From: an uncultured Erysipelotrichaceae bacterium
GTDB taxonomy: Bacteria; Bacillota_I; Bacilli_A; Erysipelotrichales; Erysipelotrichaceae
DNA: 64,000 bases
Assembly (NCBI GenBank): GCA_900315065.1
Contig: OMXQ01000001.1
Span: 1-64,000 of the forward strand
Direction: 5' to 3'
Under the pieces are notes generated by a model that worked only from the letters and a program-made list of their open reading frames with translations, did not search any database and was not told the DNA's origin. Of the stretch, positions 27,595 to 31,308 are shown piece after piece. Within the stretch, counting starts at the first letter, position 1. Each line of letters begins with the position of its first letter. Both the position numbers and the translations under genes were made by a program.

Positions 27595-28215
27595 ATGTCA
27601 GAATTAACCATTGAATATTTCGGCCATTCCTGTTTCAAGCTCATCTGTCACCATAAGTCCCTTGTTTTTGATCCTTATCGTGATAATTCGGTTCCGGGGC
27701 TTTCTTTACCGTCCGGTATAACTGCAGATGCAGTGTATTGTTCCCATGAACATGATGATCACGCCGGCAGGGAAATGATTGAGGCTTCCGGCAAGGATCC
27801 CTTCCCGGTTACTTTCATCAAAGTGCCGCATGATGATGCCAACGGCACCAAAAGAGGCATGAATGATATTACCAAAGTCACAATTGATGAAGTTACGGTA
27901 ACCCATATGGGCGATATCGGAAGATTGCCGACAGCTCATGAATATGAAGAGCTCAAAGATACAGATATTCTGCTTATTCCGGTGGGCGGCCACTTTACGA
28001 TTGATGCAGAGCAGGCAGAAGAAATCATTGAAACCATCAAGCCTTCCCTGACGATTCTGATGCATTACCGGGAAGGGGAAAGAGGCTATGGTGTAACCGC
28101 AGATCTGAGGGATGTTGCAAAGGTCATCGCATTTGACAAACACGAAGAAAATACAATTTCTTTCCCGCTTGATGATATTCCGGAAGGAATTATTACTCTC
28201 GAGCCGATTCAGTAA
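27595..28215 (+). CDS. MBL-fold metal-dependent hydrolase
   Basis: 206 residues of the metallo-beta-lactamase fold. The metal motif is HEHDDH at residues 51-56, with GHSCF near the N-terminus, THMGDIGRLP and PVGGHFTIDAEQA giving further ligands. This is the small UlaG/UPF0173-like branch, whose substrates are mostly unknown. A TATAAT at 27565-27570 and an AGAGGAAT ribosome site precede it. It stands alone between two terminators. Confidence 0.88.
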   Translation: MSELTIEYFGHSCFKLICHHKSLVFDPYRDNSVPGLSLPSGITADAVYCSHEHDDHAGREMIEASGKDPFPVTFIKVPHDDANGTKRGMNDITKVTIDEVTVTHMGDIGRLPTAHEYEELKDTDILLIPVGGHFTIDAEQAEEIIETIKPSLTILMHYREGERGYGVTADLRDVAKVIAFDKHEENTISFPLDDIPEGIITLEPIQ

Positions 28216-28229
28216 TTCTTATCTGTACG

Positions 28230-28257
28230 GGCATTCTGAGACAGAATGCCTTTTTTT
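28230..28257 (+). terminator. Terminator after the MBL-fold gene
   Basis: Arms GGCATTCT/AGAATGCC (28230-28237 with 28243-28250), a GAGAC loop and T7. Confidence 0.92.
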
Positions 28258-28274: not shown

Positions 28275-28373
28275 ATTATAACAATTCAGAAACAATTCTT
28301 TAACGAAACTGAGAATGACAATCCGTATTCTTTATGTGTAAGTTCAAAAAGAATCAAAGGAGATCAAAAAATT

Positions 28374-29057
28374 ATGAGCGAAACAAACAACACAGATTAC
28401 GTTATGGAAAAGGATCCGCAGTACAATGTGCCGACTGCAGAACTGCTGAAGACATTCCCGATCAGGTATGAAACACCGGCAGTATCCCAGATGAACAAGA
28501 ATGTTCAGAATCGTATGCTGAACGGCTTCAACCAGTGGAACCACGGCTACGAAGCATGGGAGAAATGGGGCAACGTTCTGTACTACCCGGGATCTGTTTA
28601 TACAGTCCACGGCGTCCGTCTGACTTTGAAAGAATATCAGAAGGCAATGCAGATTTCTCTCAAGAGAGTCAATATTCAGATGGGCAACTTCATGAACATG
28701 CTGCTGGTCGATGACTGGATGGCAATCCAGTATGAAATCTCTACCAACGGACATCCTGGCAGAACCATGGAATTTGCAAGATTCAAGGACTTCGGTGACC
28801 GCGGTGCCAAGGTTGATGAAGGCTGGGGCGGTGTCAGAGCCGGTGACTATGACGGTATGATGATGTTCCTGAAGCCGGAAGAAAAGGAAGCACAGAAGAA
28901 GTACATGGATGAAATTACTGCCATGACTCTCAAGGATACAGATAATCTGGATGAAAAGTATCCGGTTGAATATCCGACAACTATCTCTACAGAAAAAAAA
29001 CAAGCAGATGAAGGAAGCTGTACTTGCAGAAATCGATGCCTGGAACAAGGGTTATGA
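28374..29057 (+). CDS. NTF2/SnoaL-like protein, first domain; frame breaks at an A8 run
   Basis: As sequenced, the frame encodes 227 residues. Residues about 40-150 form an NTF2-like domain (GFNQWNHGYEAWEKWGNVLY, then DDWMAIQYEIS), a cone fold used by isomerases, hydrolases and binding proteins. After an A8 run at 28993-29000 the frame runs into about 18 unrelated residues and stops. With seven A residues it would read T-E-K-N-K-Q-M and join the second domain at 29008, giving one protein of about 325 residues. AAAGGAGAT ribosome site. Codon use resembles highly expressed neighbours, which argues against a decayed gene. The function is not known. Confidence 0.7.
   Translation: MSETNNTDYVMEKDPQYNVPTAELLKTFPIRYETPAVSQMNKNVQNRMLNGFNQWNHGYEAWEKWGNVLYYPGSVYTVHGVRLTLKEYQKAMQISLKRVNIQMGNFMNMLLVDDWMAIQYEISTNGHPGRTMEFARFKDFGDRGAKVDEGWGGVRAGDYDGMMMFLKPEEKEAQKKYMDEITAMTLKDTDNLDEKYPVEYPTTISTEKKQADEGSCTCRNRCLEQGL
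28993..29000 (+). other. A8 homopolymer at the frameshift between two NTF2-like domains
   Basis: Eight A residues sit exactly where the first domain's frame must move forward one base to enter the second. Candidates are a sequencing indel, a real mutation, transcriptional slippage or phase variation. Confidence 0.85.
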
Positions 29058-29352
29058 ATCCTGGAGCAAAAACGCTGATTCTTTCTATACCGAAAATGCA
29101 TCTGTTACTTACGGCCATCAGACTTTTGAAAAAGCAGGTCTGAAGGATGCCATGAAAAAGCTGGCTGAAACAAAGGACGTAAAGAGAGTCAAGGTCATGA
29201 ACGTTCTGACCAGTGAAGACTGGCTGGCAATTCATTACTGGAACAGTGTCACTGAAAAGGACAGCAGAAAGACAGCAATTGATACAATGACTTTCTTCCA
29301 TTTCAATGATGACATGAAGGTTGATCTCTGTTTCGTCAATGAAAATCTCTGA
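29008..29352 (+). CDS. NTF2/SnoaL-like second domain, displaced frame of the gene at 28374
   Basis: 114 residues starting at an in-frame ATG just after the A8 run. The segment EIDAWNKGYESWSKNADSFY mirrors the start of the first domain, and EDWLAIHYWNS mirrors DDWMAIQYEIS, so the two are an internal duplication. The frame is also open upstream to 28951, but that part is out of register with the protein. No Shine-Dalgarno precedes 29008, so independent translation is doubtful and it is more likely the C-terminal half of one protein. A good terminator follows. Confidence 0.7.
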   Translation: MKEAVLAEIDAWNKGYESWSKNADSFYTENASVTYGHQTFEKAGLKDAMKKLAETKDVKRVKVMNVLTSEDWLAIHYWNSVTEKDSRKTAIDTMTFFHFNDDMKVDLCFVNENL

Positions 29353-29386
29353 TCCTGGATTTTAATAAAGTTAAGATAATAATATG

Positions 29387-29413
29387 AGCCGGGAAAATGC
29401 TTCCGGCTTTTTT
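29387..29413 (+). terminator. Terminator after the NTF2-like gene
   Basis: AGCCGG/CCGGCT arms (29387-29392 with 29403-29408), extended by two A-T pairs across a one-base bulge, then T6. Confidence 0.85.
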
Positions 29414-29463: not shown

Positions 29464-31308
29464 TTACTGATTGGTTTCAGCAGGCTTTTTGGCAGGAGCA
29501 TGGTGAGCAGCTGCTCTTCTTGCACCGGTCTTTGCCTTGATTTCTTCAATCGCAGCCTTCTGGTTCAGAATGACCGGAATAACGATCGGGTTGCGGTTTG
29601 TCTTGTCATATAAGAACGGTTCCAGAGAAGTACGGATGCTGTTCTTGAGTTCACCGAAGGTTGTTCTCTGCTGCATCTTTTTCTTGAGGGCATCATAGAC
29701 AACCAGTTCTGCTTCCTTGAGAAGCGGCTGGGAATCTTTGATATAGACAAAGCCTCTGGATACAATGCTTGGTCTGCACAGGATCTTGTTGTAGCGGGAA
29801 TCAATTGTGACAATAACTGCAATCAATCCGTTTTCAGCCAGAATCTTTCTGTCCTTGATGACAGAAGTACTCAGGCCGGTTGCATCATTGCCGTCAACAT
29901 AGATGGCATCTGTCTGGACTCTTTCGTTGGCCTTGAAGACTTCTTCATTTCTCAATACCAGCACGTCGCCGTTAGCACAGATGAAGCAGTTTTCCTTCGG
30001 AACACCGGTTTCCTGGGCAGTATGGGAATGCTGGACAAGCATCTTGTATTCACCATGGTTAGGCATGAAGTACTTCGGCTTGATCAGGTTCAGCATCAGC
30101 TTCTGTTCCTCCACCGGCGCGTGACCGGTTGTATGGAAAGAAGTCAGCGGCGAGTTGGTAACAACGTTTGCACCGACTCTGGTCAGCTGGTTGATAACAC
30201 CGGATACGGAAGTACCGTTGCCTGGAATCGGATTGGATGAGAACAGAACCGTGTCACCTGGAATGATCTTGATAAAGCGGTGGGTGCCGTTAGCAATTCT
30301 GGAAAGGGCAGCCATTGGTTCACCCTGGGAACCTGTACATACAATGCAGATCCGGTTAGCCGGCAGGGTATTGAGCTCATTGCCGGAGATAAAGGAACTG
30401 TCCGGAATACTCAATAAGCCGAGCTTTCTGCCGATTTCAACTGCATTTTCCATGGAACGGCCGAAGACGGCAACTTTCCGGTTGCAGGCAATAGCGCATT
30501 CAAGAATCTGTCTGACTCTGTAGAAGTTGGATGCAAATGTTGAGACGATCAGACGTCCCGGCGTCTTATGCATCTGTTCGAGAATGGCATTGGCGACTTT
30601 CTTTTCAGAGATAGAAGAACCAGGAACACCGGAGTTGGTGGAATCACTCATGAGCAGGGTGACGCCGATCTGACCGATATAAGCCATCTTCTGATAGTCA
30701 CTGTTCTTGCCGATCGGAGTCAGGTCGAACTTGAAGTCGCCGGTTTCAACAATTCTGCCATTAGGCGTGTTGATCAATACGCCTAAGGAATCCGGAATGG
30801 AATGGACGGTATCGAAGAAACCGATATTGAAATATTTTGTACGGATGCGGGAATCGGAATTGATTTCAATGATCTTGCAGGATCTTGAAAGTCTTCTTTC
30901 TTCCAGCTTCTTTTCGATCAGGGCTTTGGCAAAGCGCGGTGCATAGATTTCCCTGAGATGCACGGACTGCAGGAAAAACGGAATACCGCCGATATGGTCT
31001 TCATGACCATGAGTGATAACCATTGCCTTGATCTTCTGCTGGTTCTTGACCAGGTAGGAATAATCGGGAATGACGTAATCAACGCCGAGCAGGCCTTCTT
31101 CCGGGAACAGAATGCCGCAGTCGATAATGATGATTTCATCATCGTGTTCGATGCAGTACATGTTCTTGCCAACCTCGCCGAGTCCGCCTAATGCATACAC
31201 AATCGTATCTGTTTTGTGATTGATCGTGTGTCCGCTTAAGTCAGGCTCCTGAATGCGAGAATAGCGGGAAGGGCGGGTTGAACGTCTTCCGCTTGTTTTC
31301 TCTTCCAT
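29464..31308 (-). CDS. rnjA: Ribonuclease J
   Basis: 5'-3' exo- and endonuclease of the MBL/beta-CASP family, central to mRNA decay in Firmicutes. The zinc motif HGHEDH is at residues 100-105, after GGLGEVGKNMY. The beta-CASP part has CTGSQGEPMAALSR, and the C-terminal domain ends in an Ala/Pro/His-rich tail. 614 residues, with a basic N-terminal extension of about 30 residues before the core. GAGG lies 12 bases upstream, somewhat distant. It has its own promoter downstream of def. Whether it is RNase J1 or J2 cannot be settled without the paralogue. Confidence 0.95.
   Translation of the reverse strand: MEEKTSGRRSTRPSRYSRIQEPDLSGHTINHKTDTIVYALGGLGEVGKNMYCIEHDDEIIIIDCGILFPEEGLLGVDYVIPDYSYLVKNQQKIKAMVITHGHEDHIGGIPFFLQSVHLREIYAPRFAKALIEKKLEERRLSRSCKIIEINSDSRIRTKYFNIGFFDTVHSIPDSLGVLINTPNGRIVETGDFKFDLTPIGKNSDYQKMAYIGQIGVTLLMSDSTNSGVPGSSISEKKVANAILEQMHKTPGRLIVSTFASNFYRVRQILECAIACNRKVAVFGRSMENAVEIGRKLGLLSIPDSSFISGNELNTLPANRICIVCTGSQGEPMAALSRIANGTHRFIKIIPGDTVLFSSNPIPGNGTSVSGVINQLTRVGANVVTNSPLTSFHTTGHAPVEEQKLMLNLIKPKYFMPNHGEYKMLVQHSHTAQETGVPKENCFICANGDVLVLRNEEVFKANERVQTDAIYVDGNDATGLSTSVIKDRKILAENGLIAVIVTIDSRYNKILCRPSIVSRGFVYIKDSQPLLKEAELVVYDALKKKMQQRTTFGELKNSIRTSLEPFLYDKTNRNPIVIPVILNQKAAIEEIKAKTGARRAAAHHAPAKKPAETNQ

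Follow-up and report, generated by a model that had tools for sequence, protein, structure and literature searches.

A tandem NTF2-fold gene divided between two frames at a run of eight adenines in an uncultured Erysipelotrichaceae bacterium

Described genes broken at adenine runs and the present locus

Transcriptional slippage is established at A/T runs in bacteria, for example at the 11 As of Citrobacter rodentium tssM1 (PMC4256274), a gene that resembles the one described here in being interrupted after an A run with its C-terminal domain out of frame. In tssM1, however, insertions restore the frame and the products were tested, whereas the present gene has eight As and needs a change of minus one (or plus two). 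A second parallel is provided by the homopolymer-frameshifted genes of Blochmannia, in which a single indel lies in a poly-A tract, the rest of the gene is intact and slippage may correct the frame (PMC3017870); these genomes have extreme AT bias and many genic poly-A tracts of at least nine bases (153 in B. vafer), unlike the single case found here, where the window has 45% G+C. In transcripts of E. coli and Buchnera, the changes seen in homopolymer A/T runs are mostly insertions, deletions seldom being associated with such runs (PMC5574713), and nine bases is the length at which, in a large share of genomes, genic A/T runs are visibly selected against (PMC1088944). According to Antonov et al., a frameshifted gene that is unclustered and validated by BLAST is expected in most cases to reflect a sequencing error (PMC3711429).

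The gene considered here occupies positions 28374-29352 on the forward strand of a 64,000-nucleotide stretch of DNA (the window) from a gut-type bacterium. As assembled, its first open reading frame (ORF 1, 28374-29057) encodes 227 residues, comprising an NTF2-fold domain 1 (approximately residues 38-166), an inter-domain stretch and, after an A run, an out-of-frame tail of 18 residues, QADEGSCTCRNRCLEQGL. The frame changes by +1 at this run of eight As (A8, 28993-29000, forward strand), and the rest of the gene, encoding a second NTF2-fold, SnoaL-like domain (domain 2), continues in the shifted frame of the same strand from 29002 to 29352, with its stop at 29350-29352. An earlier note on this DNA had placed two NTF2-like domains in frames differing by +1, with the switch at the A8, and the sequence confirms that exact position. 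The note had also held that seven As give a continuous reading of about 325 residues, as is indeed found when the run length is varied: A7 yields a read-through product of 325 residues and A10 one of 326, A8 yields 227 residues and A6 or A9 yields 211-212. The second frame is open across 116 codons with coding-like codon use; log-odds per codon near the A8 are 0.49 upstream and, in the shifted frame, approximately 0.37-0.38 downstream, values usual for coding sequence in this genome, in agreement with the active-gene codon use previously ascribed to both halves.

ORF 1 begins with a good Shine-Dalgarno sequence (AAAGGAGATCAAAAAATT-ATG) within a ribosome-binding region at 28352-28373 on the forward strand (AATCAAAGGAGATCAAAAAATT); no Shine-Dalgarno sequence comparable to it precedes the internal ATGs at 28951 and 29008. 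Together with domain 2, ORF 1 forms a single transcription unit, alone between two forward-strand intrinsic terminators, that of the upstream metallo-hydrolase gene (28229-28251) and one just 3' of domain 2 (29386-29409). The upstream neighbour (27595-28215, forward strand), which in congeners adjoins RNase J, encodes what we take, from reading the protein, to be a metallo-beta-lactamase-fold hydrolase, and the convergent downstream neighbour (29464-31308, reverse strand) presumably encodes ribonuclease J, likewise named from its protein.

The joint and domain 2 compared with relatives

Both domains are encoded in one unbroken frame in six relatives. One of these (L015) is a contig of the congener G081, obtained from a search of the genus; L012 (a Sphaerochaetaceae MAG), L013 and L014 (both Lachnospiraceae) came from a scan of species genomes, and L141 and L143 from a search of the family of the L013 genome, the Lachnospiraceae relatives being of rumen type. 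The intact relatives are 44-54% identical to the read-through product over its whole length (approximately 54% for the nearest), and in all six the alignment is gapless at the joint. Here the read-through frame of the window has STEKNKQMKE and the relatives have, among others, DTELGKKMKS, DTELGEKMKA, PAGDGEKMRD and STEAGKNMKD; the shift must therefore lie within the A run or the few bases next to it. As all six relatives are continuous across this joint, 28374-29352 is, by sequence comparison, one gene in two pieces, as the earlier note's proposal of a tandem NTF2-like gene split at the A8 had it, and in annotation the two pieces should stand as one gene with a private frameshift.

That domain 2 is instead a separate gene, re-initiated near 29008 or 28951, is hardly credible. 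Although ATGs in the second frame do precede the first stop, and an in-frame TAG separates the domains of the tandem relative L142, neither ATG has a Shine-Dalgarno sequence, a start at 29008 would truncate at its N-terminal end the first helix of domain 2 (residues 207-224 in an AlphaFold2 model, the frame break falling where this helix begins), and the six relatives are fused.

Joint DNA was read in four of the relatives (L012-L015), where it runs GAA CTT GGC AAA AAG, GAA CTT GGC GAA AAG, GGA GAC GGA GAA AAG and GAG GCA GGA AAG AAC, respectively. None of the four has a homopolymer comparable to the A8 at this point, so that run and shift are not conserved and the site does not appear to be kept for slippage. 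Of 13 residues that do not vary among the six intact relatives, domain 2 itself retains 11, and its identity divided by that of domain 1 gives 0.49-0.70 for the window, values that fall inside the span found between intact relatives (0.45-0.95). On this evidence domain 2 is undecayed, which implies that the lesion is recent, or unreal, or bridged.

Origin of the surplus adenine

The reliability of such runs in the same genome, a 144-contig assembly, was surveyed over 720 kb of its 2.52 Mb, comprising the window, the large contigs and the surroundings of A8 runs on contigs as far as C81. A general scan for frame switches proved too noisy, being triggered by ordinary gene overlaps, and this was solved by restricting the search to homopolymers. 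Of 76 intragenic coding A/T runs of at least seven bases, 75 are in frame (64 A7/T7 and 11 A8/T8), and the window A8 is the only one to break a recognisable gene, indicating that errors at such runs are infrequent and that the assembly is not generally homopolymer-prone. The automatic test flagged five further places, which are gene junctions or non-coding frames; two of them, the junction of RNase R with SmpB and an ordinary stop in L059, were checked by direct reading, and the others were judged from translations. The longest homopolymer of the window is a run of 18 Ts at the start of the contig (positions 1-18), possibly an assembly edge artefact.

The earlier note had listed a base-call error, a fresh mutation, phase variation and RNA-polymerase slippage as possible causes of the split. 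Whilst this is fair as a list, the causes are unequal in likelihood: the relatives do not share the shift, those read at the joint lack an A run, no stimulatory structure lies nearby and the direction of slip required is rare, and together these points make an indel at the DNA level, whether a true one or an error of the consensus, more likely than slippage or phase variation. We give about an even chance to a commonplace frameshift of one base, probably recent, in a two-domain gene that had been acquired. The ancestor would have been an acquired tandem NTF2-fold (SnoaL-like) gene with both domains in one frame, whose inter-domain stretch turned A-rich in the window lineage; strand slippage during DNA replication would then have added one A, giving the A8 and shifting the frame where the first helix of domain 2 begins. 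The default product would be the 227-residue protein, i.e. domain 1 with its out-of-frame tail, and domain 2 would not be made. The event would be recent because domain 2 still resembles that of the relatives, although an undecayed domain 2 is explained equally well by the main rival, an isolated consensus error, in which the surplus A arose in sequencing or metagenome assembly and the true gene is intact and encodes the 325-residue tandem protein. The privacy of the frameshift to the window assembly, the fragmentation of the source genome into 144 contigs and the expectation for unclustered, BLAST-validated frameshifts (PMC3711429) all argue for such an error, whereas the 720 kb surveyed argues against it, 75 more coding A/T runs, each of 7-8 bases, being in frame there; we regard it as a credible account, but one that is somewhat doubtful.

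Readings in which both forms of the protein are made from the locus have no positive support. Phase variation, i.e. a run length that varies between cells and so switches between full-length (A7) and domain-1-only (A8) forms, would be in keeping with a coding-region homopolymer whose on and off forms are one base apart, but is improbable given that the run is short (eight bases), that it is absent from the four relatives read, and that the gene gives no hint of the surface or DNA-modification roles typical of phase-variable loci and has no signal peptide by eye. Quite improbable, despite the precedents of tssM and Blochmannia, is transcriptional slippage (or ribosomal frameshifting) on the A8 that would yield some full-length protein beside the 227-residue form. 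The frame requires minus one or plus two As, and a one-base insertion (A9) meets a stop within four codons, as does a minus-one ribosomal slip, which enters the same frame; the run is also shorter than both the nine-base selection point and the well-studied cases (11 As in tssM), and its site is not conserved in the four relatives read. RNA folding up- and downstream of the A8 found no unusually stable structure, such that ribosomal frameshifting, too, would want for a stimulatory element. There is thus no sign of a programmed frameshift: a slippery run conserved in orthologues, as expected of programmed transcriptional slippage, was not seen in the four relatives, and neither was a slippery site in the right frame with a stimulatory element, as expected of the ribosomal kind. 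It is unlikely that the A8 acts as a low-level switch, by slippage or reversible indel, through which this rumen-type bacterium makes one- and two-domain forms of an acquired NTF2-fold protein; were slippage or switching on only eight As to be true, the run length expected for such control would fall in these bacteria.

Fold, family and distribution

The AlphaFold2 model of the read-through protein, built with four relatives (pLDDT 85, pTM 0.86), contains two copies of the NTF2 fold. Both halves follow the order H-H-E-E-H-E-E-E-E, an alpha+beta cone with helices on a curved sheet, placing them in the NTF2-like superfamily. The usual role of this fold is to bind or convert a small hydrophobic molecule. 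Against NTF2-fold structures, domain 2 (residues 205-325) gives a best Z of 16.3, and domain 1 (residues 38-166), folded alone, a best Z of 13.9 from a weaker model (pLDDT 61.5). A search of solved structures by sequence returned no meaningful match to the window protein. By Foldseek at full length, tandem polyether epoxide hydrolases lead, followed by ketosteroid isomerase and SnoaL-type cyclases. The leading matches, Lsd19 and MonBI-MonBII (3rga, 9kw6), share with the window protein the possession of two NTF2-fold domains per chain, but at approximately 11% identity and with a different domain arrangement (rmsd approximately 16 over both domains), the likeness seen being one of fold. Ketosteroid isomerase, SnoaL2 and limonene epoxide hydrolase, to which domain 2 aligns at Z of approximately 15, likewise resemble it in NTF2 fold. 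Both window domains share the fold of the SnoaL-like, ketosteroid-isomerase-type proteins of Pfam SnoaL_2 (PF12680), a model matched by four of five tandem proteins; the scores for the second-frame ORF (23.3 bits) and the read-through protein (21.5 bits) fall below its curated cut-off of 27 bits and do not place the window protein in that family. It belongs to a small family of tandem NTF2-fold proteins, patchy in distribution and not well covered by any Pfam or NCBIfam model. Some members look by eye like lipoproteins, with lipoprotein-like signal peptides seen in this way at the start of L012, L013 and L141.

The neighbourhood formed by pyruvate kinase, the hydrolase and RNase J is conserved, and at least eight congeners have the hydrolase and RNase J genes as direct neighbours there and lack the NTF2-fold gene, which therefore looks acquired. 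Its nearest relatives lie in other families and another phylum, and 392 genomes drawn from the phylum yielded no match beyond the window, indicating a patchy gene. These comparisons are most simply read as acquisition by the window's lineage, with repeated loss a possible alternative; misbinning of contigs in metagenome assemblies might also make the hosts assigned less certain. No relatives were found in phage collections, plasmid collections or viral contigs, and hence there is no sign of a mobile-element gene.

Single-domain relatives also exist (L018, L144 and L145), making a domain-1-only protein plausible. In the seventh tandem relative, L142, the TAG between the domains (1972-1974) is a case in which the two were separated independently. 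L145, which comes from one genome in the Lachnospiraceae search, carries a single-domain gene (1402-1932) directly upstream of a tandem-domain gene (1944 onward), a pair consistent with spread by duplication. A further NTF2-like-looking gene (similar to MTLEERLAHHKAMAESYH...), at 5538-6125 in L014 and 1906-2454 in L018, follows the tandem gene in the former and the single-domain gene in the latter. Elsewhere in the window's own genome a single-domain NTF2-like paralogue (L025, 1441-1971, on contig 38 of G000) adjoins a gene for a regulator that by eye is of TetR type, and the same pairing, with the regulator again typed by eye, occurs in L009.
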